A DNA stretch of 64,000 nucleotides from Proales similis (Eukaryota > Rotifera > Eurotatoria > Ploima > Proalidae): positions 434,001-498,000 of the forward strand of contig JAGVRJ010000014.1 of NCBI GenBank assembly GCA_019059635.1, in the 5' to 3' direction. Positions 1 through 54,801 of the stretch are shown here, piece after piece; the stretch's first letter is position 1, and the number at the start of each line of letters is the position of its first letter. Both the position numbers and the translations under genes were made by a program. Below the pieces are notes generated by a model. It did no database searches. It had not been told where the DNA came from and saw only the letters and a program-made list of their open reading frames with translations.

Positions 1-3000
1 GCGCCTGGGGCTGCTTTGACGAATTCAACCGCATCTCGGTCGAAGTGCTCTCTGTCGTGTCTGTGCAGGTCAAGAGCATTCAGGACGCCATTCGCGACAA
101 GAAGAAACGCTTCATATTCATGGGCGAGGAGATTGCACTCAATCCGACTGTGGGCATATTCATCACCATGAATCCGGGCTACGCCGGTCGAACCGAGCTG
201 CCCGAAAATCTCAAAGCCCTGTTCAGGTAATTCAACTTAAGAGCCCATTCGCCGTAATTCGCTTACTTGACCTCATCGTTCAGACCGTGTGCCATGGTTG
301 TGCCCGACTTTGAGCTGATCAGTGAAATCATGTTGGTCGCCGAAGGCTTCACTGAGGCTCGTCTGCTCGCCAGAAAGTTCATCACATTGTACACGCTGTG
401 CAGAGAGCTGCTCAGCAAGCAAGACCACTACGACTGGGGTCTGAGAGCGATCAAATCAGTGCTCGTGGTGGCTGGATCGCTCAGAAGAGGCGATCCCGAT
501 CGTCCCGAGGACCAGGTGCTTATTAGAGCCCTTCGCGATTTTAACATTCCAAAGATTGTCACCGACGATCTTCCCGTCTTCATGGGCCTCATCGGCGATT
601 TGTTTCCGTCGCTTGACGTTCCTCGTAAACGGTGAGTTCGACTTGACTCGGCATCTCGGCAAGCTTCTCTTGATGATCTGTTGGCATTTTTTAGTGATCT
701 CGAGTTTGAAAAATCGATCAAACAAGCGACCGTTGATCTCAAACTTCAGCCAGAGGACGGATTTATACTCAAGGTGGTTCAGCTGCAGGAGCTGTTCGAC
801 GTGCGCCACTCGGTGTTCATAGTCGGAAATGCGGGCACTGGCAAAAGTCAAATCTGGAAGGCGCTGAACAAGACATACCAAAACTTGAAGAAGAAGCCAG
901 TGGCGGTGGATCTCAATCCGAAAGCAGTGACAAACGACGAACTGTTCGGCATAATCAACCCGACAACAAGAGAATGGAAAGACGGCCTCTTTTCGGTGAT
1001 CATGCGAGACTTGGCCAACATGACCTCAGACGGACCCAAGTGGATCGTCTTGGACGGAGATATCGACCCCATGTGGATCGAGTCACTCAACACAGTGATG
1101 GACGACAACAAGGTACTCACGCTGGCCAGCAACGAGCGTATCCCGCTCACGCCCAGTATGCGTCTGCTGTTCGAAATTAGCCATTTGCGAACAGCCACGC
1201 CGGCCACGGTGAGCCGTGCGGGCATCCTCTACATCAATCCGGGCGATCTGGGCTGGAATCCGCAAGTAACGAGTTGGATAGACACTCGCGAGGTTCAAAC
1301 AGAGCGAGCCAATCTGACAATTCTGTTCGACAAGTACGTGCCCGCGTGCATGGAAGCGATCAAGAACCGCTTCAAGAAGATCACGCCCATCGTGGAGAAT
1401 GCACACGTGCACATGCTGTGCAATCTGCTCGAGTGTCTGCTCACTCCCCAGAACACGCCGGCCGACTGTCCTAAAGACCTCTACGAGCTCTACTTTGTGT
1501 TTGCGTGCGTATGGGCGTTCGGCAGCGCCTTGTTCCAAGACCAAATATGCGATCACCGAGTCGAGTTCTCCAAGTGGTGGACCACCGAGTTCAAGACAGT
1601 CAAATTTCCGACCCAGGGAACCGTCTTCGACTACTACATCGATCCGGAGAGTAAGAAATTCGAGCCGTGGACCAAGCTGGTGCCCAAATTCGAGCTCGAT
1701 CCAGACATGCCGCTTCAGTCTGCTCTGGTGAACACGAGCGAAACGACACGAGTGCGATACTTCCTCAATTTACTGGTCGACAAGGCGCGGCCAGTCATGT
1801 TGGTGGGCGGCGCAGGCACAGGCAAGACTGTGCTCATAAACGACCGTCTGAATTCACTGTCCGAGGACTGGGTGGTGGTAAACGTTCCGTTCAACTTTTA
1901 CACTACTTCGGAAATGTTGCAGAATGTGCTGGAGAAGCCGCTGGAGAAGAAGGCCGGCCGAAACTACGGTCCTCCAGGCGCCAAGCGACTAATCTACTTC
2001 ATCGACGACATGAACATGCCCGAGGTGGACACCTACGGCACTGTCCAGCCGCACACTCTGCTCAGACAACATATGGACTACAGGCACTGGTACGACAGAC
2101 AAAAGCTTACCCTAAAGGAGATAAACAACTGCCAGTACGTGTCTTGCATGAACCCGACCTCGGGAAGCTTCACCATCGATCCTCGTCTGCAGCGGCACTT
2201 TGCTGTCTTTGCTGTCTCCTTCCCTGGCCAGGTGAGTTGTGGGTCGGCTCTTTGAAACGTTCGTGTTCATGATTACCATTGCAAAATCAGGACGCGCTGC
2301 GAACCATTTACAACAGCATTCTGTCGCAGAATTTGGCCAACGGCTTTGCACAGGTTGTTCAAAAGTACTCAATGAATTTGGTGAATGCGGCACTGGCCTT
2401 GCATCAGCGAGTGAGCACCGCGTTCTTGCCCACCGCCATCAAGTTCCACTACATTTTCAATCTGCGCGACTTGTCCAACATTTTCCAAGTAAGCTCTCTC
2501 TCTCTCTCTCTGCTCTAAGACGAACCGTTCAATCAAGTGGTGCAGGGCATTCTATTCGCCAAAGCGGACACAATCAAAACTGTGAACGACCTGGTCAGGT
2601 TGTACGCTCACGAGTCGGAGCGAGTCTACTGCGACAAGCTGGCCGACAAGGAAGACATTGAGCTGTTTGGCAAAATTCAGCGTGACGTAATCAAAAAGAC
2701 TCTGGAGGATGTGAACGAGGAGGAGTGCTTCAAGAAGCCAAACATATTCTGTCACTTTGCGCAGGGTGTGGGCGATCCCAAGTACAGCCAGATTGAAAAC
2801 TGGCCACAGCTGAGCAAACTTCTGAGCGACGCACTGGACAACTACAACGAGCTCAACGCGGCCATGAATCTGGTGCTGTTCGAGGACGCCATGATGCACA
2901 TTTGCCGCATAAATCGCATTCTCGAGTCGCCCAGAGGCAACGCGCTTCTGATCGGCGTGGGCGGCAGTGGAAAACAGAGTCTGAGTCGACTGGCCGCTTC

Positions 3001-6000
3001 GATCAGCTCTCTTGAAGTGTTCCAAGTCACATTGAGAAAAGGCTACGGCATACCGGACCTAAAGCTTGATTTATCGCAGTTGTACTTGAAAGCGGGCCAG
3101 AAGAACATCGGCGTCGTCTTCCTGATGACCGACGCCCAGGTTGCCGAGGAGAAGTTCCTGGTGCTCATAAATGACTTGTTGGCGTCGGGCGAGATTCCGG
3201 GCCTGTTCGCCGACGACCAGATCGAAGACATAATCAGCTCGATCCGCAACGAAGTCAAGAGTCTGGGCATGGACGACTCGCGTGAAAACTGCTGGAAGTA
3301 TTTCATCGACAAAGTGAGACGCATGCTGAAGGTGGTGCTCTGCTTTTCGCCTGTGGGCGCCACTCTGCGCGTGAGGAGCCGCAAATTCCCGGCCATAATC
3401 AACTGCACCAACATCGACTGGTTCCACGAGTGGCCTGAAGAAGCGCTGAAGAGTGTGGCCAGACGCTTCATTGCCGACGTCGACCTGCTCTCTGCCGACC
3501 TTCAGGAGAGCATATCCAACTTCATGGCCTACGTTCACAAGAGTGTGAACGAAATGAGCGCTTCCTACTTGCAGAACGACAAGCGATACAACTACACGAC
3601 GCCCAAGTCCTATCTTGAGCAGATCTCGCTCTACAAACGCCTGCTGACCCTGAAGAACAAAGAGCTGCAGGACAAGATTGTTCGCCTGGAGAACGGCTTG
3701 GTCAAGCTTCAGTCGACGTCCAAGCAAGTGGACGACCTGAAAGACAAGCTGGCCGCTCAGGAAGTAGAAGTGAAGCAGAAGAACGAGGAGGCAGACAAAC
3801 TGATCAAGATTGTGGGCGCCGAGACAGAGAAAGTGGCAAAAGAAAAGGCGATCGCCGACGAAGAGCAGGTCAAAGTGACGGCGATCAGCATCGAGGTGGA
3901 GAAGAAGAAGACCGAGTGCGAGCGCGACTTGGAGAAAGCGATGCCTGCGCTAAAAGCGGCCCAGGACGCCTTGAACACTTTGGACAAGAACAATTTGACC
4001 GAAATGAAATCTTTCAACAATCCGCCCGAGGCCGTGCTCATGGTCTCCTCGGCTGTGCTCGTTCTTATGGCGCCCAACGGAAAAGTGCCAAAGGATCGTT
4101 CGTGGAAAGCAGCGCGAGCCATGATGGGCAACGTCGACCAGTTCTTGAACGGCCTGATCAACTACGACAAGGACAACATTCACGAGAACTGCCGCAAAGA
4201 AGTGCAGCCCTATCTCAGCAATCCCGGATTCGACCCCGATCAGATCAGAACGAAATCGTCGGCTGCCGCTGGCCTTTGCTCTTGGTGCATAAACATTCTC
4301 AAATACTACGAAGTATTCTGCGAGGTAGCGCCCAAGCGCCAAGCGCTCAACAAAGCCAACGCTGAGCTTCAGGCGGCCAAAGACAAACTGGCCGCTGTGG
4401 AGAAAAAGGTCTCCGACCTTCAGGTCCAACTCAAGGCGCTCACCGACGAGTTCAACGAGGCCAAAGAGGCCAAAGACAAATGCGAGCGTGACGCCCAACA
4501 GACCGCCTACACAATCAACTTGGCCAATCGACTCGTGGGCGGCCTCTCATCGGAAAAAATCCGATGGACCGATTCGGTGGCCAGTTTCCGCTTGCAAGAG
4601 AACTGCTTGCCGGGCAATGTGCTTCTCATCACTGCCTTCATCTCGTATGTGGGATGCTTCACCAAGCCCTACCGTCTGGACTTGATGGACAAGCATTGGC
4701 TTCCGTTCCTTACCACGCTGAAGGTGAGCGACTTTGCGCGCGTTTCGAAAGCTTCCTTCCTTTTCTTATTCATTGTTCTGTGTTGCAGACCCCGATTCCA
4801 GTCACCGAGGGCCTGGACGTCTTGACCATGCTCATTGACGATGCGGACATTGCCCAATGGAGCAACGAGGGCCTGCCAGGCGATCGCATGAGCATAGAGA
4901 ACGCAACCATTCTGACCAACTGCGATCGATGGCCTCTTATGATCGATCCACAGCTGCAGGGCATAAAATGGATCAAGACTCGTTACGGCGAGTCGCTCAA
5001 GGTCATCCGACTCGGCCAGAAGGGCTACTTGGACAAGATCGAGCAGGCGTTGACATCGGGCGATACGCTGCTGATCGAGAACATCGACGAGTCGATTGAG
5101 GCCGTGCTCGATCCGCTCTTGGGCCGTAACACGATCAAGAAAGGCCGAGCGATAAAGATCGGCGACAAAGAAATCGAATACCATCCGAACTTCCGTCTCA
5201 TTCTTCAGACCAAACTGGCCAATCCTCACTACAAGCCGGAAATGCAGGCGCAGACAACGTTGATCAACTTCACTGTGACTCGTGACGGCCTGGAGGACCA
5301 GCTGCTGGCCGACGTGGTTGCCAAGGAACGGCCGGACTTGGAGAAGCTCAAACACGAGCTGACCAGAGAGAACAACGAGTACAAGATCACGCTGAAAAAG
5401 CTCGAAGACTCGCTGCTGGCACGTTTGAGCGCAGCCGAGGGAAATTTCCTCGGCGACGTCGAGCTGGTGGAAAATCTTGAGAACACGAAAACGACGGCGA
5501 TCGGCATCGAGGAAAAGGTCAAAGAGGCCAAAGTGACGTCGGTGAAAATCGACGAGGCTCGCGAGCTCTACCGACCGGCGGCGACTCGCGCATCACTCAT
5601 CTACTTTATAATGAACGACTTGTACAAAATCAATCCGATGTACCAGTTCTCGCTCAAAGCGTTCAAAGTAGTCTTTTCCAAAGCGATCGAGCGCGCCGAG
5701 CCGGCCGAAGAGATCAAGGAGCGTGTGAGCAACTTGATCGACTCGATCACTTACTCGGTGTTCATCTACACCACCCGAGGCCTGTTCGAGAAGCACAAGC
5801 TCATCTTCACCTCCCAGATGGTGTTCCAGATTCTGCTCAACGCCAAGGAGATCGATCCGAAAGAGCTTGACTTTTTGCTGCGCTTCCCGGCCCAGCCGAA
5901 CGTCATCTCGCCGGTCGACTTCTTGAGCGACCTCAGCTGGGGCGGCATCAAGTCGCTCTCCGGCATGAACGAGTTCACCAACCTCGACCGGGACATTGAG

Positions 6001-8013
6001 GGCTCAGCCAAACGATGGAAAAAGTTCGTCGAGAGCGAGTGTCCCGAGAAGGAGAAATTCCCGCAAGAGTGGAAGAACAAGAGCTCGCTGCAGAAGCTGT
6101 GCATGATGAGAGCGCTCAGACCCGATCGAATGCTCTACGCGCTCAGCTTGTTTGTCGAGGAAAAGCTGGGCCGCAAGTACACGGAGAATCGTTCGATTGA
6201 GTTTGCCAAGTCGTTTGAGGAGACCACGCCGTCCACGCCCGTGTTCTTCATCCTCTCGCCGGGCGTCGATCCGTTGAAGGACGTGGAGCAGCTCGGAAAG
6301 AAGCTGGGCTTCACTTTTGACAACAAGAACTTCCACAACATCTCGCTGGGCCAAGGACAAGAAATAGTCGCCGAACAAGCGATGGAAGAGGGCGCCAAGA
6401 ACGGCCACTGGGTTGTGCTGCAAAATGTGCATTTGGTGGCCAAATGGCTGCCAACGCTGGAGAAGAGCCTCGAGCAGCACTCGGAGACCGGACACGAAAA
6501 CTTTAGAATGTTCGTCTCTGCGGAGCCGGCCGGCGATCCTTCCGCTCACATAATCCCGCAGGGAATTCTCGAGTCAGCAATTAAGATCACAAACGAGCCG
6601 CCGACTGGCATGCAGGCCAATCTGCACAAGGCGTTGGACAACTTCAACCAGGACACGCTGGAAATGTGCTCGAAAGAGACCGAGTTCAAGGCGATTCTCT
6701 TCTCGCTCTGCTACTTCCATGCAGTGGTCGCCGAGCGGCGCAAGTTCGGCGCCCAGGGCTGGAACCGCAACTATCCGTTCAACAACGGCGATTTGACCAT
6801 CAGCGTAAATGTGCTGTTCAACTACTTGGAGAACAATGCCAAGATCCCCTGGGACACGTTGCGCTACTTGTTCGGTCAGATCATGTACGGCGGCCACATC
6901 ACCGACGACTGGGACCGTCGCTTGTGCTCGACTTACCTCGAAGAGTACATGAACCCGTCCATGTTCGACGGCGAGCTCTATTTGGCGCCCGGCTTTGTAA
7001 TTCCGCCCAGCACCGACTACAAGGGCTATCACAATTACATTGACGAGAACCTGCCACCGGAGAGTCCGTACCTCTACGGCCTGCATCCGAACGCCGAAAT
7101 AGACTTTTTGACGACGACCTCGGAGAATCTGTTCAGAACGGTGCTGGAGATGCAGCCGCGCGACGCTGGCGCCGGAGCCGGCGGCGAGAGCGATCAGACG
7201 AGAGAAGAGAAAATCAAGCAGAAACTGGACGATATTATGGAGCGGCTGCCCGACGAGTTCCCAGTGAGAGAGCTGATGGCCAAGGCCGAAGAGAAAACGC
7301 CCTACACTGTGGTCGCCATACAAGAGTGCGAGAGAATGAACATACTCACCCGGGAAATAAGACGGTCTCTGAAAGAGCTGAGCCTCGGTCTAAAGGGAGA
7401 GCTGACCATCACGCCAGAGATGGAGGCGCTGCAAGAAGCCCTCTTCCTCGACCAGGTGCCGGCCTCGTGGACCAAACGCGCCTACCCGTCTATGTTCGCT
7501 CTGGGCCAGTGGTACTCTGACCTAATACAGCGAATCAAGGAGCTAGAGAATTGGACCGGCGACTTTGTCCTACCTCCCGCCATTTGGCTGGGCGGCTTGT
7601 TCAACCCTCAGTCGTTCTTGACCGCGATCATGCAGACGACTGCGCGCAAGAACGAATGGCCGCTCGACAAAATGTGTCTGAGCGTGGACGTGACCAAAAA
7701 GAACAGAGAAGAGCTGGGAGGCGCGCCGCGAGAAGGCGCCTACATTTGCGGCCTGTTCATGGAAGGCGCCAGATGGGACACGCAGACCAACCAGATCGCC
7801 GAGTCGAAGCTTAAAGAGCTCACGCCTCTCTTGCCCGTCATATTCATCAAGGCTATTCCGGTCGATCGTCGCGACACCAAGAACATCTACGAGTGTCCCG
7901 TCTACAAGACCAAAATGAGAGGGCCCACTTTCGTCTGGACTTTTAACTTGAAAACCAAAGAGAAGCCGGCCAAATGGGTGCTGGGCGGCGTTTGCTTGCT
8001 CCTTCAGGTCTAA
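1..8013 (+). CDS. DNAH9/11/17: Axonemal dynein heavy chain, outer-arm beta type (5'-truncated by window)
   Basis: This is the C-terminal ~2,570 residues of a dynein motor, an ATPase that drives ciliary bending from the outer dynein arm. The window opens inside AAA1, just after its ATP-binding loop, at the Walker B region (CFDEFNRI). P-loops of AAA2 (GNAGTGKS, about 824), AAA3 (GGAGTGKT, about 1804) and AAA4 (GVGGSGKQ, about 2953) follow. The stalk coiled coils lie near 3640-3960 and 4330-4520, flanking the microtubule-binding tip. AAA5, AAA6 and the C-terminal domain fill the last exon. The ending ([13 protein letters not shown]) and the segments MEGARWDTQ and CPVYKT are typical of the DNAH9/11/17 group. 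Exons: 1-226, 284-631, 695-2231, 2291-2488, 2546-4723, 4789-8013, with introns of 57-65 nt and phases that fit exactly. The 5' half lies outside the window. Which of the three vertebrate paralogues is closest cannot be decided by eye. Confidence 0.95.
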
Positions 8014-16200: not shown

Positions 16201-16557
16201 GCTCGCTTTCATTCGGTTTTCAAACACGGGCTTGGCTGCGCGCGTCGCTATCGCATTAGAGCTCGGGTCGGTGCAGTTCAAGCGTTTTGTTAATTGTGTG
16301 GAATGCCACTCGAGTCGGACAGAAAGTGCGCAGTTTACGAGTAGTGATCTGTTGGCCGACGCCAGAGAGCGCTTCGAAAGCTAACGAGAGTGTCGAAGAG
16401 TGGCGACCGTCGTTGATTATATCGATTAAGCAAGCTTGCCGCACGAGAGAGGAATAATTTATTAAAATAGAGCAGTGGGCTTCTGTTTATCCTCGCGTCT
16501 CGTCGATGCTCCGTTCTAATTAACTTGTATTCATTTTGGCAGCCATCGCCTTTAGAA

Positions 16558-16563
16558 TATATA
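16558..16563 (+). promoter_or_regulatory. TATA box of the syndecan gene
   Basis: TATATA 57-62 nt upstream of the syndecan ATG, consistent with a TSS about 30 nt downstream and a short leader. Confidence 0.55.
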
Positions 16564-16619
16564 GAAGGGGAGGGCGCACAGAGCTCTGCACGGCCACAAG
16601 ATCAACCCGAAGCATCACA

Positions 16620-17396
16620 ATGATCAAGTGTTTACATTTACTTTTACTGTGGACGGCGCTGGCCGCCTCCAGTGGCCAATTCGTGCACAAAGATGAGGAT
16701 CCGTATGCGCCAGATGGAAGCGATTCGTACGAGTCGAGCGGCTATCACTTCAAAGAGGACGCCCATTTCTCGGCAGCTTACGCATCCAGCGACCTCAAGA
16801 TCGAATCGGCCAAAACCAAAAGGCTGCCGGACAATTTGCATGTGCCGGCTGAAAAGCTCTCGCCCAGCGACATGTACTACAAGCCGCCGCAGTTCGAGGC
16901 GGGCCGAGGCAACCTGCTCGAGCCGATCAAGGCGCCGGACAATCTGCTCAGCGGCAAACTGCACAATCCGTCTTCTTCTCAATCGCTTGAGATCGGCTAC
17001 CTCAACGGCCTCGACTCGGAGCACAAGAAAGACGACAACGAGCTCTATTACTATTACGACGACACTTACGGCCTGTCGGACAGCAAGGGCGAGATAAAAG
17101 TGGAAGAGCCGGTCTACCAGCCGCCACCGTCGCAGCCCGACGACCCCAAACAAGAGATGAAAAGCAACTACGAATCGTCACGTTCTAAACTCATCTCGAT
17201 AATCACCAAGCCGGGCATCATGGCCGGCATCGTGGGCGGCATTATCATCGGAGTGCTCACCGCCATTTTGCTTGTGATGTTCATCATTTACCGAATGCGC
17301 AAGAAGGACGAGGGCAGCTATGCGCTTGAGGAGAGCAAGAAGCCTCTAAACGCCTACGACTACCGCAACTGTCCGACAAAAGAGTTTTATGCCTAA
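16620..17396 (+). CDS. SDC: Syndecan, transmembrane heparan-sulfate proteoglycan
   Basis: A 258-residue intronless type I membrane protein and cell-surface co-receptor. Start ATG 16620 gives a clean signal peptide (MIKCLHLLLLWTALAASSG). The ectodomain is acidic, with Ser-Gly sites flanked by acidic residues (DSYESSGYHF) suited to glycosaminoglycan attachment, and a Tyr/Asp stretch (ELYYYYDD). The membrane helix is GIVGGIIIGVLTAILLVMF. The cytoplasmic tail is canonical: C1 (RMRKKDEGSYALEE), a variable part, then the C-terminal EFYA that binds PDZ proteins such as syntenin in the family. A TATA box precedes it and AATAAA lies at 17885. A truncated tandem copy follows 0.9 kb downstream. Identification is firm from the tail alone. 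Confidence 0.95.
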   Translation: MIKCLHLLLLWTALAASSGQFVHKDEDPYAPDGSDSYESSGYHFKEDAHFSAAYASSDLKIESAKTKRLPDNLHVPAEKLSPSDMYYKPPQFEAGRGNLLEPIKAPDNLLSGKLHNPSSSQSLEIGYLNGLDSEHKKDDNELYYYYDDTYGLSDSKGEIKVEEPVYQPPPSQPDDPKQEMKSNYESSRSKLISIITKPGIMAGIVGGIIIGVLTAILLVMFIIYRMRKKDEGSYALEESKKPLNAYDYRNCPTKEFYA

Positions 17397-18314
17397 ACGG
17401 CCGCCGCTGCTGCAGCCGCCTTATGTAGAATGGTCGTTTAGAAAGCAAGGCACACAGCCAGATAGTCCTTTCCTCTCTTTCTCAATCGCACACTCACTCC
17501 TCTTCTGGTCGTTAGCCGAGTCGCACCCTCTGTCCCCCTTTCGCCTCATCTCTTCACTTGGCCCTTCTCATTCTCTCTCTCTCTCTCTTTGTCTCTATTC
17601 CCCTTCTCCCTGTCGCTCTGTTTGCTGACCTTGTTAAATTCTGTTTTGATGAAATGATTTCTTTTCGGCCGTTCGATCAAATTGGTCTCGTGTCAGTCAA
17701 CTGTTCAAAGCACTGTTTGTTAGCATCGTGTCCTCAATCTTGAGTCAATACCACAAGTCACCTCCATCACCCCTATTCATACATCTCGCAGAGCTAGTCA
17801 GCTGAATTGTGAGACAACCAAAGCTCTTCTTTAAGAAACCAGTTTTAACCAAGCTACATTTTGCTCTCAAATTTTGTATATATTAATAAATCAATGGGTA
17901 GTCGACGTGCTTCTCTTTTATTTCTCAATGCCGCACTCAAACCTTTTTATCAAGTGCTGTCCGCCCACATCAGAATAGACAGGTCTGAGTTCAATCTCAC
18001 TTGAAATGTTCACGGCGGGCCTTGATGACTAATCTGGCGTTGAATGAGAAGAATTACGCATTCGAAAGAACCCAACCTATCCGCCCGGAGCGACAGCGAG
18101 ATCAAAACCAGAGGAGATGTTAAATTGAAAACACAAGTTTGGCAACTAAATTGAGCAATTTAAATCAGTTGCCTTATCTCATAAAACTCCAATCTCAAAC
18201 AGCCGCTCAAAAATAAGACCTCCATCCGATCAGTTGTTTTTTTATAAGAATTCCCAGTCTCTCTATTATAACACTCAAGTAGCAGTCTGAAGTAACACAC
18301 TAATCGCAGTCAGA
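17397..18314. other. Syndecan 3'UTR and intergenic spacer
   Basis: CT-rich 3'UTR (17460-17620), then an AATAAA at 17885-17890 that probably ends the syndecan transcript. The right end holds the TATAA motifs near 18243 and 18264 that precede the tandem copy. No gene seen. Confidence 0.6.
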
Positions 18315-19070
18315 ATGGTCAAATGTTTGCATATTCTTCTACTGTGGATGGCAATCGGAGCCTCTAGAGGCCAGTTCAATTTGTCAAAGCAAATCGAGCT
18401 TGTTAATCATGAAATTGATTCAGACGAGCCGATTATTGCAAACGGGCATCATGAAAACTCGAACCAGGAGAGCGGAGACCAACTGTCGGCCCTGCAAGAG
18501 CAATCACCGTTGGCGTTGAACAAAGATGCAAGCAACGATATTGAGCCACTCCAAGCAGAGACGGATAGCTTGTGGATCGACTCAGGCACCAATTCGTCTT
18601 CTCTTGTCATCAGCTATTTGGAAAGTATTGAGGAAGACACAGAAAACAGCGATTATTACTATTACGATCTACTCCAGCACACAGAGGAGGAGATGATCCC
18701 AAAGCCACATTTAAATGCTTACAACGCATCGGAGACTATCAAAGCGGCCGATCCGCGGCCGCTTTGGTCTAAGTGGCACACCGGCACCCAACCCAACAGC
18801 ACCCAACTCAACATCACTGTGCAGAACATCACCCGGCACCTGCTTCCTGCAGAGGCTCCGCAACATAAGCTAAACATCACGAATTTCGTTGACCCCGTCG
18901 AGAATGAACGGTCCAGTTTCATCTCCGCCTTGACTAGGCCGGCCATTTTAGCCGGCATTATTGGTGGCTTCGCAATCGGACTGCTTGCAATTATCGCGCT
19001 TGTGATGTTCACCATTTTCCGAACGCGCAAGCAGGACGCAGACAGACCGAGTTCAGGACAAAGCCTTTGA
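18315..19070 (+). CDS. Syndecan-like tandem paralogue lacking the EFYA cytoplasmic tail
   Basis: A 251-residue intronless type I membrane protein, clearly a copy of the upstream syndecan. The signal peptide (MVKCLHILLLWMAIGASRG), the YYYYD stretch, the juxtamembrane ISALTRPAILAG and the helix (GLLAIIALVMFTIFRTRK) align with it segment by segment. The ectodomain has an acid-flanked Ser-Gly (NQESGDQLS) and several N-glycosylation sequons (NSS, NAS, NST, NIT). The cytoplasmic tail is short and has neither the C1 KKDEGSY block nor the C-terminal EFYA, ending DRPSSGQSL. It should therefore not bind syntenin or other PDZ partners. It has its own TATA motifs and an AATAAA at 19162. The frame is fully open, so it looks like a diverged functional gene rather than a pseudogene. 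Confidence 0.85.
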   Translation: MVKCLHILLLWMAIGASRGQFNLSKQIELVNHEIDSDEPIIANGHHENSNQESGDQLSALQEQSPLALNKDASNDIEPLQAETDSLWIDSGTNSSSLVISYLESIEEDTENSDYYYYDLLQHTEEEMIPKPHLNAYNASETIKAADPRPLWSKWHTGTQPNSTQLNITVQNITRHLLPAEAPQHKLNITNFVDPVENERSSFISALTRPAILAGIIGGFAIGLLAIIALVMFTIFRTRKQDADRPSSGQSL

Positions 19071-31482: not shown

Positions 31483-32396
31483 TCAAAAGAGAAAACGACT
31501 GCCGAAGAATAGAAACAAGAAACTAAGAGCAGATTGCAGCCGAGGACCGAATATTGAAAAGGCCGCATTCATCGCATAAGTGGTGCGGTCGATGTCTTGG
31601 TCGAGCACCGTAACCCGACTCACAGATGTTGTTGTCGCATCGCACAGTGGATAGGCGGTCGGAGTGGCCGTGCCTGCCGAGCCGACCGGATGACACGGAT
31701 TCGGCACCAAGTAGTTGATGGTCAAATTCTTCCTGTAGATGGTCACCCTCGACTCGTAGGATATTTTGTAGTTGTAGTAGCTGTAGGCCGAATTCAAGTC
31801 TTTGCGTTTAAAAGCAAAGATTAAGATCTGGCCGACCGCAAAGAATGCACCTGTCACTTACAAGGAGAAGTGCCCATGAAATAGAAGAAGGTGCCCAGGA
31901 ACGCCAGGGAAAAGAGAAGCGTCAGCAGCCAGATCCAAACTGGACAGAACAAGAGCACCTCGCAGAAGGCGAGCGGCCTGCAGCACTTTTTGCTCAAACA
32001 GTTGCACCAGTGGTATTCGTAGGCTTGTGGAAACTGTCCAGAGTTAGTCTGCTTAGTCTCGCCGTTCTCTCATCAAGATGCTTCACTAGAACAAACCTTT
32101 GAGCAGCATCGATACTTTTTCGGTTCGCGCATGAGCGGCTGCTTGGGACCTTCATGCTCCATTGTGAGCACAAAGGTTTGGGGATGGACTGGCGGCTGGC
32201 GGGAAACTGCATGGACAGCAGGCACAGTGCGAACCACGGAGACGGGTGTCAGCCTTGCGCTGGGCTCTTCGGGCTCTGGGTAAATGTCGTAAGTGGCCTT
32301 GGCTGCCACTTGATTCACCGAGAGCGTTGAGGGAGAATTGAATCGATTCGGATCCACATGTGCTGGATTTATTCGCCGCACCTTGTTCGGCTGCAT
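31483..32396 (-). CDS. Orphan membrane protein A of a three-gene tandem family
   Basis: 262 residues, three exons (32097-32396, 31862-32033, 31483-31799), family not recognised. Layout: a cytoplasmic N-terminal region of ~95 residues rich in Pro/Val; a Cys-rich membrane-entry segment (CNCLSKKCCRPLAFC); one transmembrane helix (WLLTLLFSLAFLGTFFYF) ending at GTSP; then an ectodomain with NLTINY and a conserved PCxP motif (NPCHPV). A Cys-plus-Thr sequence LCDATTTSVS follows, and a hydrophobic C-terminus (ALSFLFLFFGSRFLF) resembles a GPI-anchor signal. The middle exon is 172 nt, the same as in gene B, and ends in phase 1 directly after the helix, as in B and C. ATG 32396 was chosen over the in-frame ATG at 32537, which would start 4 nt after the stop of gene B. 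Confidence 0.75.
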
Positions 32397-32540
32397 CTTT
32401 GGAAGAGTTCGAATTACAGAGAAATGCAAATAAAACGGCCTCAAGTTGATTTGGCTCCTGCGCGACCAGGACAGCCAGCACAAGATAAAATAAAAAATTT
32501 TAGAGCAGATTTGGCTTATTGCAATTATTTTTGGCAATGA

Positions 32541-33297
32541 CTAAACGCGAAAAGTTTGCCCACAAAAGGTGGAAAGAACAGCCAGAGGCAACAAGTAAAC
32601 AAAGATCGGTCTCCTGATGCTCGTCTCTCCGCTAACTGTGTTCGAATCGGACTGCTGATAAATCGAAGAGACGGTCGAGACGCTCGTGGTAGTTGTGTTA
32701 CACAGCGAGGATGTTGTAGAGGTGATCACCGACAGCAAGTAGTTCGGAAAGCAGGGCCCGCCGGCGCCGTAGTAAAACACCGTTTCGTTTATTTGAATGT
32801 TTTCATTGTATCTGGCCACCCGTGTTTCATATTTGGTGAGACTCGGGTTGGAAACTAATTGAAAGCAAGCAAGCAGTCTGATGGAACCGAATCAGCCAAA
32901 TAGAGAGGCCAGCACTTACTCGGCGAGGTGACCATGAAAAATGTGAGCGTTCCGAGGAGCAAGAGAAATATGGCCAAGACAGCGAGAAACAAGTAAACTG
33001 GCGCGCCCCATTGGTCGCCCAGACAGCTGAACGGAACACACCGACATCCGTTGGTGCATGTGCACATGTGCAACTCGTCGACATCCGCCCTCTGCAAAAC
33101 AGGATTAGCAGCTTGAGCCAATTGAGCGAGTCTGTTGGACAAACCTGTGGAAAGCTCTTGTCTCGAATGAAAAACTGATGCTCCGGTGGCGACTCGGGCG
33201 TGTTCAATATCTTGTAGCTCGCCGACTCGTTTTGAAAGGCATTTCGTCCGGCGACCTTGATGGCGTTGCTGGGTGTCGCAACGTTATACACTTGCAT
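32541..33297 (-). CDS. Orphan membrane protein B of the tandem family
   Basis: 212 residues, three exons (33145-33297, 32920-33091, 32541-32854). Family not recognised, but clearly paralogous to A and C. Layout: a ~55-residue N-terminal region, a Cys-rich membrane-entry segment (CTCTNGCRCVPFSC), one helix (YLFLAVLAIFLLLLGTLTFF) ending at VTSP, and an ectodomain with NETV, the GGPCFPNYL motif and LCNTTTTSVSTV. The hydrophobic C-terminal tail (FVYLLPLAVLSTFCG) follows small residues suited to GPI attachment. Predicted topology: N-terminus inside, ectodomain outside, tethered at both ends. Its own TATA box lies at 33379-33386. Gene A starts only 144 bp downstream. Confidence 0.75.
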
Positions 33298-33378
33298 ATC
33301 AGCAAAACAGTTCTATTGTTGTTGTATGCGTGACAGCAGAAACCAAGTGAAACGGGCCTGCAGAGTAGGCAGCAGCAG

Positions 33379-33386
33379 CTTATAAA
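33379..33386 (-). promoter_or_regulatory. TATA box of orphan gene B
   Basis: TTTATAAG on the minus strand about 82 nt upstream of the gene B ATG, suggesting that B has its own promoter and is not only read through from C. Confidence 0.45.
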
Positions 33387-33608
33387 CAGCAGAGAATTAA
33401 TTTAAAAATGCGGAATTCCTCAATGTTTATCAACCTCAAAGTCATGGATCCTAACTTGTTTGGCCGTTGATTCCAACGAATGTCAATAAACATCTCAAGC
33501 AAGCACAATAAGACCGCCATCAACTGTTGTTTCATCCCATTCGTCTTTATTTCTTTTTTTTTTTCAATGCAATTTGAAAACGCGCGTAGGTGCGCACGCG
33601 TTTCGAGT

Positions 33609-34446
33609 TTACACACAAGCTGGAGTGAACATTAGGTTGAAAAACAAGAAGCCAAAGTGAAGAGGCAATTTAGACGCCGAGCTGGCTGCCACCTCCTCAC
33701 GGTTGAATTCGCGATCACTTTCATACACTGAGGTGCTGTTTTTGGTCTCGTTGCAGAGCGGGCCGAAAACGGCCGCATTGTAGGCTTCTATTAGCTCAGT
33801 GGGAAAACAGGGTGTCGGAACCTCGATGATTACTGTTCGGTTGCGCACACGGTTGTTTGTTCGCCTCAATGTTAGATACTTGAAAACCTCGTTGCTCACG
33901 ACTATTAATTGCAAACGCTAAATTTAGCCTGCTCTAATAAAAACAACAACTCGCTTACATGGTGATTTTAGAGCGAAGAATATCAGCAATCCGGTTAGCA
34001 GGAGTAAACTTAGAGCGCTCAGCAGCCAACACCACCAAGGAACCGAAGAAAAGCAGCTGCCAATTCGACCTAATTTGGTTTGCTGGCACGAGACACCAGC
34101 AAAAGAGACTTGAACGACGATTGCAAATGATTAGATTTTGGCTTGCATTTCTACTTGCTGGCTTGACGTCAACTACACTCGGCTCTGTTTGCGCAGGCAT
34201 CATTCGCACTTGAGGCAAAGGCTTCTGAACCGTTTGAATCGGCTGGGTTTGCGCTCGACGAAGGAGGCGAGGCCTACGAATGACCTTGAGGATGCGACCG
34301 GGCGGCTGCTGGCTTATTACTGGACCGAACTTTGGATTAACTGGTCCCATCTGTCCGATCGGCTTTATCGAACTTGGCGAGTTGACGATCGAGCTCAGAC
34401 GCTCATCTCCGCTGTTTACTCTGATTCTCACTGCCTCGGACTGCAT
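33609..34446 (-). CDS. Orphan membrane protein C of the tandem family
   Basis: 244 residues, three exons (34155-34446, 33959-34108, 33609-33901). The N-terminal region of ~95 residues is basic and Pro-rich (RRPRLLRRAQTQPIQTVQ). The Cys/Trp-rich membrane-entry segment is SCFSSVPWWCW, then a helix (LSALSLLLLTGLLIFFALK) ending at SP. The ectodomain has NRTVIIEVPTPCFP and LCNETKNSTSV, matching the spacing in A and B, and a hydrophobic C-terminus (LPLHFGFLFFNLMF) follows AASSAS, a good GPI-attachment context. The intron after the helix is phase 1 as in A and B; the first intron is phase 1 here but phase 0 in A and B. The upstream in-frame TTG is not a start; ATG 34446 is used. Confidence 0.72.
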
Positions 34447-35012: not shown

Positions 35013-35456
35013 TCAATGGTTAAAAGTGACCGACTTTCGCGACAGCTGAGATTGCCTTGAAGTCTGAGGTTTATCGGGCGACAGCGGCGAATGGTTTTCG
35101 TCTTTGAGCAGCGGCTTGACCGGCTGGGCATCTGAGGCGAACGAGGCTCTGAGTATGCTCTTGGAAGGCTTTTTGCTTAAACTGTTTATGGCTCTTTGGC
35201 TATCGAATTCGAACTCTTGAAAGAAAACTGTTTGAGCTTTGCTCCGACTTGAGCCCGAACGACGCGCACGGCTGCTTGTTCTCTGGATTTTTCTGAAGCG
35301 GCGAAGAGTTATGAAGCAAATTATGAACATGTAGAACGTTGTACAGAAGAGAATTATGACGCAAATCACAAGGACGTTGAGAGTAGCCTGGGTGACGTTT
35401 TCACTCGACGGCCACCCGAACAAGCTGTTGTGGGTCTGACTGCTTGGAGTGGACAT
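35013..35456 (-). CDS. Small single-pass membrane protein with a C-terminal PP1-docking-like motif
   Basis: 147 residues, one exon, family not recognised. The N-terminal ~20 residues include an N-glycosylation sequon (NVTQ), then one helix (LNVLVICVIILFCTTFYMFI) followed by basic residues (RRFRKIQRTSSRARR). An N-out, C-in orientation without a cleaved signal peptide is therefore likely. The cytoplasmic part is Ser/Lys-rich with possible kinase sites and ends RKSVTFNH, where KSVTF fits the RVxF docking consensus for protein phosphatase 1. Overall layout resembles small channel-accessory subunits of the KCNE type, but I see no sequence match. It lies just upstream of the orphan cluster on the same strand without sharing its motifs. 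Confidence 0.6.
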   Translation of the reverse strand: MSTPSSQTHNSLFGWPSSENVTQATLNVLVICVIILFCTTFYMFIICFITLRRFRKIQRTSSRARRSGSSRSKAQTVFFQEFEFDSQRAINSLSKKPSKSILRASFASDAQPVKPLLKDENHSPLSPDKPQTSRQSQLSRKSVTFNH

Positions 35457-35776
35457 GACTGGGCCAAACTAAAAGTTATGCGCTTGCAGATTCTGAGCTC
35501 ATTGCGATGCGCTCAATTCGGGCGCCTTTGAAAATGATCTCTGTGGCAAAGCATTGGCTTCAATCAGTGACGTCCCGGAAACCGACTGTTTGCCACTAAA
35601 ACCACAATCCGATTGCGTTCGTGACAAATTTATTATTCATCAGTTTTTATTTTTTAACGTGCAAAGGGCCCAGAGAGGCGAGAAACCAGCAAATGAGAAT
35701 TTCCTCTAGTCGGCATGGTCAGGCAAAGATGGCGCCATGGCCTTGGTTGTTGTGCGCCGTTGCGGTACGAAACGGC
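35457..35776. other. Spacer before DBR1
   Basis: 320 bp with no supported gene; holds the DBR1 3'UTR (plus-strand TTTATT near 35644 gives AATAAA on the minus strand). Confidence 0.5.
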
Positions 35777-53030: not shown

Positions 53031-54801
53031 TCAATAGCCGTGATAGAGCGGGTCGCGCAATTCGGACAAAAGTCGTTTTGTTTCGCCTTTTGCTTTTGGA
53101 CTCTTCTTACGTCGATAGATCAACAAGCTGACCAGAGCAACGAGGGCCAGGAAGCCGAGACTTGGTCCGATTATCACCAGATAAAACTGAAATGAACGCG
53201 AGCAAGAGGAGTCGGTGCTTTTTCGAGCATAATAGAAAGGCAGATCGCAATTTACAAACTCTGCACTCCCTTGAGGACAGACGGCTCCGCTTGGACAACT
53301 GCGAGGTGCGCATGAAGAACAAGGACAAAAGAAGCCAGACGGACATAGGCTGCAACCGAGTGCACCCGGCTCTTCGGTAAAAGATCCTCGTGGGCATTCG
53401 TTGCACAACCCAAAGTCTTTGGCGGGCTTGTAAAAGCCAGGTCTACACGGTACGCATTCAATGGCCGCCTCTACCAGACTCTCCGCGCCCGCCTCACAAG
53501 GCTCACACCGCACGCAGCCGGTTTGATTGCAGTGCGAGCCGAGAAAACAAGGACCGCACTGAGCTTGGCCCTGCTTGCTCTGGAAATAGCCGGGCTCACA
53601 CTCCTTGCAGCTGGTCGAGCCGGTCTTGTCCGCGAATTGCCCTGTCAAGCGAGATGAGGAATTGCTTTATCAACTTGGACTCTTATCAAGTCAAACCTTT
53701 TGCACAAGGCTCGCACGAATCAAAACTCGCATTCGATTTGAAGAACCCGGCCAAGCAATCGCTGCAGTTTGTTGACGATTCGCTCCTGTGAAATGATTGA
53801 GAACAAATATTTACGCATTTACTCGTCTGCAAGGCACTCGATCAAGCGGTAAATGTGATTTACAAGGATTCTTGGCCAGCTGGACAGGGAAGGCAATCTG
53901 TTGAGGCATTTGCCGGTTGAAACGAGCCCGTAGGACATGCTCGGCATTTACTCTGTCCGTTCAGATCATTGAACGAGCCGGGCGGGCACTGATCGCAGTT
54001 CCTACACCCCGTACGACTTGAGATTTCAAACTTAAACAAACAGGTTCTGGAGAAAAGAACTGAGGTTTACTTGCAAAAAGTGCCTGCTTGGCATTCATTG
54101 CATTGGGTCTGGCCGAACAAAGGCTGAAAGAAGCCCTCCGAGCAGTTGGTGCAGTTCGGCGCCGCTTCGATCTGATTGAACGATCCAGGTTCGCACAAGT
54201 AACAACTGACGCTCGCGGTGCGATTGGCATACGAGCCTTCCCAGCATTTGTGGCACAATTTAGCTCCTGTGGTGCTTGATTCAACTTCAACCTTTCTGAT
54301 CTTGCTTGGTTACACCATCGAACAAATTTACTTTGAGTAGAAGCCTTTCTGACAAGGCAAGCATTCGCTCTGGTTGAATTTGGCATTGTGAAAGCCTTCT
54401 GCGCACGGGACACAATCTACGCATGTACCAGTCAATGGACAGCAGCCGCATTCGTCGAAGCCTTTCCGAGCAGTTTTTATATTCAGAAAAAGAGGAGCAC
54501 AGCCGAGCATAGCGTGTCTAATTTGATTGATTCTTGCAGCAACAAGTCTGACGCACAGACAGACAAATTCCAATCGACTATTGCTCACAAGTGAACCGAG
54601 CAGCAGCAGCGGCGGCAGCTAACTTTGATTGTAAATGCTTCCCGGAGCACAAAAGTGGCATTGGCTCAGATTGAATGCAGAACAGTTCTGATCAGGGCCG
54701 CTAGTCCACCAGCGTTGGCTAAACTGTTTTGACTGCGAATTGTCAACAACCAGAAAGGCACAAACAAACACGACCACTAAATGCTGAAGCTTGAAATGCA
54801 T
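53031..54801 (-). CDS. Cysteine-rich type I membrane protein with ephrin-receptor-like (GCC2/GCC3) repeats
   Basis: A multi-exon gene. ATG 54801 opens a signal peptide (LVVVFVCAFLVVDNSQS). The ectodomain is a string of about ten modules of the form C-x2-C-x(3)-GxF/Y, for example CEPGSFNQIEAAPNCTNC, CSEGFFQPLFGQTQCNEC, CPPGSFNDLNGQSKCRAC and CRPGFYKPAKDFGLCNEC, like the repeats of ephrin receptors and GCC2/GCC3 domains. Several carry N-glycosylation sequons. One helix (FYLVIIGPSLGFLALVALVS) follows, then a ~30-residue basic tail with a dileucine-type signal (GETKRLLSEL) and a C-terminal DPLYHGY. There is no kinase or death domain. It is probably an orphan cell-surface or endosomal receptor-like protein. 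Internal exon borders are only partly resolved. Confidence 0.7.

Follow-up and report, generated by a model that had tools for sequence, protein, structure and literature searches.

Three tandem genes of the rotifer Proales similis encode an orphan family of membrane proteins that may be anchored at both ends

Proteins anchored in the membrane by a helix at one end and by GPI at the other are rare, and tetherin (BST-2/CD317), a vertebrate antiviral tether, is the standard example. In the account given in PMC6546079, the tetherin ectodomain is an alpha-helical coiled coil with three inter-chain disulfides, and a helix is depicted as the C-terminal anchor, alongside evidence that some forms carry GPI. 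Three adjacent genes of P. similis, here termed A, B and C, encode proteins with the same predicted order of elements, i.e. an N-terminal tail, a helix, a glycosylated Cys-bearing ectodomain and a hydrophobic, possibly GPI-directing C-terminus. The initial annotation of the locus had called this arrangement tetherin-like, which applies to the order of the anchors at most. Whereas tetherin has a coiled coil with three inter-chain disulfides, the P. similis ectodomains comprise approximately 80 residues with two conserved Cys, and a crude heptad fit over 28 residues gave best scores of 5, 6 and 7 of 8, which were reached by 576, 318 and 233 of 1000 shuffles, respectively, and are thus no better than those of shuffled sequences.

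The genes were found in a window of 64,000 nucleotides (contig JAGVRJ010000014.1, positions 434,001 to 498,000 of the forward strand; all positions below are those of the window unless stated otherwise), in which the GC content varies from 43.8 to 57.7% between 2-kb bins. P. similis, a monogonont rotifer, has a very small genome, reported as 32,722,929 bases in 15 contigs with 45.51% GC (PMC11954553). Positions 31483-34446 are filled exactly by the three genes, which are arranged in tandem on the minus strand as originally described (genes A and B of the initial annotation are C and B here):

33609-34446, minus strand: gene A; exon 1 starts at 34446 and has an uncertain end (34155 in the model used), exon 2 ends at 33959, exon 3 is 33901-33609; 192-246 aa depending on the model
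33902-33958, minus strand: intron 2 of gene A, 57 nt, phase 1 after Ser-Pro
32541-33297, minus strand: gene B; exons 33297-33145, 33091-32920 (172 nt) and 32854-32541; 212 aa
32855-32919, minus strand: intron 2 of gene B, 65 nt, phase 1 after Ser-Pro
31483-32396, minus strand: gene C; exons 32396-32097, 32033-31862 (172 nt) and 31799-31483; 262 aa
31800-31861, minus strand: intron 2 of gene C, 62 nt, phase 1 after Ser-Pro

The phase-1 intron noted earlier directly behind the helix, at a Ser-Pro, is present in all three genes, and the identical length of two middle exons (172 nt, in B and C) was likewise confirmed. The first introns of B and C are both in phase 0 and start with GTTTGT. A common three-exon structure had been proposed for all three genes; it is well established in B and C alone, since a convincing first intron is lacking in gene A. 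The candidates for this intron score poorly on a generic splice consensus, and the five that were worked out give proteins of 192-246 aa. Of the 12 listed candidates with the best scores, the three highest-ranking ones result in an exon 2 of 124 nt and the fourth in one of 98 nt, and the model used for the alignment and the family searches, with an exon 2 of 150 nt, ranks eighth; exon 3 of gene A and the ectodomain tests are independent of this choice. The stop of A and the ATG of B are separated by 311 nt, and B and C by 144 nt. An AATAAA is found 57 nt past the stop of A and 50 nt past that of C, which suggests that those two genes end there; only variant signals were found for B.

All three proteins contain the PC(F/H)P motif and the LC(N/D) block described previously, with the motif read from the gene models at the following positions:

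33801-33812, minus strand: PCFP motif of gene A
32745-32756, minus strand: PCFP motif of gene B
31687-31698, minus strand: PCHP motif of gene C

The sequons reported alongside these motifs number three, two and one in the ectodomains of A, B and C, respectively, and B has one extra sequon in its predicted cytosolic part. The Cys/Trp-rich segment at the membrane entry, which had been ascribed to all three proteins, is dense in Cys in B and C (five and six to eight Cys near the helix, respectively), whereas A has two or three Cys there and no dense cluster. Cys residues are also present in the C-terminal tails of A and B, and an Arg is found near the tail end in B and C.

The three proteins share 24-36% pairwise identity in the ectodomain, 28-38% in the exon encoding the Cys-bearing segment and the helix, and 19-22% in the N-terminal domain. 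As hydrophobic segments can mimic homology, the helix and the tail were left out of the homology test, in which ectodomain profiles built from two members were used to find the third among 6303 ORFs from a six-frame translation of 264 kb. The left-out member was retrieved with E-values of 2.4e-4 (A), 1.6e-8 (B) and 5.1e-6 (C), while the best unrelated ORF reached 0.95, 2.9 and 0.83, respectively. The three genes are thus a real family, homologous beyond chance.

Searches for relatives outside this family came back empty, in agreement with the earlier description of fast-diverging paralogues of no known family, within the sensitivity of the searches. In Pfam, no matches at E ≤ 10 were obtained for B and C, and none of the three proteins matched the BST-2 or CaKB families; A gave a single weak match to a helix (LRR19-TM, E 0.072, 13.6 bits against a cut-off of 27). 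No NCBIfam family matched any of the three. Profile searches, a check suggested with the initial annotation, were carried out against the PDB as well as the family collections and gave no convincing match: in the PDB, 7 and 3 sequences were listed at E ≤ 10, with E-values of 0.1 and 0.24 at best, and tetherin was not among them. A set of 5.8 billion proteins, which includes rotifer proteins, gave 556 candidates with gene C as query, none at E ≤ 1, and 7995 scored candidates with the three-row alignment, none at E ≤ 10; these searches are word-based at the first step, and orthologues at approximately 30% identity could escape them.

Further copies were also sought in the P. similis genome (32,716,893 bases in 15 contigs, the sole rotifer genome searched), by methods blind to copies more divergent than A. 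The protein pieces encoded by exons 2 and 3 of C retrieved C and B, those of B retrieved B and C, and those of A retrieved A alone. Two consensus queries, for exon 3 and exon 2, found only the three known loci at E ≤ 10, and exon 1 of A as well as the whole DNA stretch matched only themselves. A profile scan of 264 kb similarly returned the three loci only, with the next best matches at E 0.1 (exon 2) and 0.53 (exon 3). The family thus appears to be an orphan and lineage-restricted so far, i.e. with no relatives detected at the present search sensitivity.

As had been predicted, each protein has one strong hydrophobic helix. The part before it comprises 84 and 125 residues in B and C, respectively, and 73-127 in A, depending on the model. 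The helices are located as follows:

33969-34025, minus strand: transmembrane helix of gene A, KD19 2.58
32936-32992, minus strand: transmembrane helix of gene B, KD19 2.74
31902-31958, minus strand: transmembrane helix of gene C (best 19-residue window), KD19 2.34

At 73-127 residues from the start, the helix is too far into the protein for a cleaved signal peptide. The predicted type II orientation is based on the ectodomain sequons and the C-terminal tail, with the additional sequon of B, on the opposite side of the helix, running counter to it. The positive-inside rule gives this orientation no support, as the 20 residues on the N-terminal side of the helix and the 20 on its C-terminal side have net charges of +2 and +3 in A, 0 and +2 in B, and +1 and 0 in C, respectively.

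We tentatively favor a reading in which the locus encodes a tandem family of type II proteins with a palmitoylated Cys/Trp-rich membrane entry, a disulfide-closed loop and a C-terminal GPI anchor. The flanking charges, which do not back the orientation, count slightly against this reading. According to this model, the N-terminal domain, the length of which is given above for each protein, would reside in the cytosol, followed by the strongly hydrophobic signal-anchor helix, and the Cys/Trp-rich entry would probably be S-palmitoylated, judging from its composition. The ectodomain of approximately 80 residues would be glycosylated, be closed by a single disulfide linking PC(F/H)P to LC(N/D), and loop back to the membrane, where the transamidase would exchange the weakly hydrophobic C-terminus for a GPI anchor. 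Fixed to the membrane at both ends, the resulting short loop would act as a surface coat or in recognition, with an outer sequence that drifts fast while the anchors are kept. Such drift with retained anchors would fit a coat or recognition role; a role in adhesion or defence is a guess.

A hydrophobic C-terminus, as first annotated, is found in all three proteins:

33612-33668, minus strand: hydrophobic tail of gene A, KD19 1.51, 0 residues after it
32550-32606, minus strand: hydrophobic tail of gene B, KD19 1.67, 2 residues after it
31486-31530, minus strand: hydrophobic tail of gene C, KD15 1.82, ending at the stop

The best 19-residue tail windows have KD19 values of 1.36-1.67, compared to 2.34-2.74 for the first helices, and are followed by 0, 2 and 6 residues in A, B and C, respectively, so that these weakly hydrophobic segments end no more than six residues from the stop. 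Approximate insertion energies are -1.7 to -4.3 for the first helix and +1.4 to +5.0 for the tail; several transporter segments of the same genome are positive as well. A rule describing a GPI signal (small residue, spacer, hydrophobic tail) fits all three tails and 20 of 494 other ORFs (stop-to-stop, at least 100 aa), but it was drawn up post hoc, after inspection of these tails, and paralogues do not count as independent trials. The genome encodes PIGT (PF04113), with a match over the cut-off, and matches to C13 peptidases (PF01650) were found at two loci, which may represent PIGK and legumain. A C-terminal GPI signal is plausible, with the Arg near the tail end in B and C as a point against it.

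Alternatively, the C-terminus could be a true second transmembrane helix, so that the proteins would be two-helix hairpins with cytosolic N- and C-termini, like auxiliary channel subunits. We consider this reading somewhat doubtful, though it is the strongest of the competing ones. In this genome, the helices of single-pass proteins (two syndecans and a small neighbor of the family) have KD19 values of 2.66-2.93 and those of the genome's own BK-channel beta subunit values of 2.37 and 2.09, while the helices of SNF and MFS transporters range from 1.11 to 2.30. The tails thus overlap with helices of multi-pass proteins, and hydropathy alone does not decide against a second helix. An AlphaFold model of the exon-3 alignment (gene C), of low confidence (mean pLDDT 44.9, pTM 0.19), renders residues 71-103, including the tail, as one helix. 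The general layout is also shared with BK beta subunits (CaKB, PF03185), which are small and glycosylated, have two hydrophobic segments and, in the human proteins, show a similar spacing of a PC motif, approximately 35 residues past the first helix. This spacing made the three proteins candidate BK beta subunits, an assignment rejected with the genome's own CaKB gene as control. The control, a single-ORF BK-channel beta-type subunit (L044 1411-2106, minus strand; G000:C3; 71.3 bits), differs from the family in that 8 residues precede its first hydrophobic window, its ectodomain has many Cys and its second helix is followed by 30 residues; the tail windows of the family, in contrast, stop 0-6 residues before the end and leave almost no cytosolic tail. 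None of the three proteins matches CaKB in Pfam, and comparison with the genome's CaKB gave an hhalign probability of 0.6% and a best BLASTP E-value of 0.78 over 13 residues. A search for TipE gave no match in this genome, but as its 14 control genomes gave none either, this negative carries no weight.

An improbable variant is that of type II proteins with the helix as the single anchor and neither GPI nor a second helix, the C-terminal stretch instead packing into the ectodomain or binding a partner. The weak hydrophobicity of the tails and the Cys residues in those of A and B would be in line with this, but terminal hydrophobicity has been kept in all three proteins in spite of an ectodomain identity of 24-36%.

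Codon bias is weak in all three genes and does not prove that they are coding. In the spliced coding sequence of each gene, the true frame outscores the other two forward frames, at values below those of all 8 training stretches. At the level of single exons, another forward frame scores higher in 3 of 9 and some other frame, antisense included, in 7 of 9; the score passes over stops. That the gene models are incomplete, with exons missing, 3' ends misplaced or one gene of the three being a pseudogene, is the least probable of the alternatives: this codon bias, the missing first intron of A and a donor-like GTAAAC overlapping the stop of A speak for it, while the frames remain open across homologous exons, intron 2 is common to the genes and an AATAAA follows A and C at the distances given above.

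Lineage-specific membrane and surface protein families are common, which limits the interest of the present one, and it is the helix-plus-GPI topology that would be the noteworthy part. We regard it as rather unlikely, at present, that an invertebrate family has reached this double anchor independently of tetherin, with a disulfide-closed loop in place of the coiled coil and a tandem array of diversifying surface recognition or coat proteins as the outcome. If true, double-anchor topology could arise more than once and be useful beyond antiviral tethering, and the family would offer a handle on rotifer surface biology. Nine listed papers contain both "rotifer" and "GPI-anchored", none of them with either term in its title or abstract.

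The other genes in the window are ordinary animal genes, encoding an axonemal dynein heavy chain, an NHL/B-box/filamin protein, a TBC/SH3/RUN protein, DBR1, a kinase, a replication factor C subunit, syndecans and transporters. The DBR1 gene adjoins the family; among the best 120 of 3815 matches listed, the closest named sequence was from Brachionus calyciflorus (67% identity), and another sequence reached 71%. Also beside the family, positions 35013-35468 (minus strand) encode a small single-helix protein with an N-terminal sequon, a KD19 of 2.91 and a basic, Ser-rich C-terminal domain, for which Pfam gave sub-threshold matches only.

Syndecan domains are encoded by two adjacent open frames on the plus strand, 16524-17396 (Pfam E 8.2e-26) and 18291-19070 (2.8e-8). 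Close to their starts, both frames have similar hydrophobic segments that contain KCLH, and the pair probably represents a tandem duplication in this very small genome. A Cys-rich stretch similar to ephrin receptors is encoded at 53031-53666 (minus strand), and a weak syndecan-type match below the threshold lies behind it. The open frames of the axonemal dynein heavy chain, at 636-8013 (plus strand), are very long and seldom interrupted, and the PDB sequences closest to this protein are DNAH17 and DNAH9.
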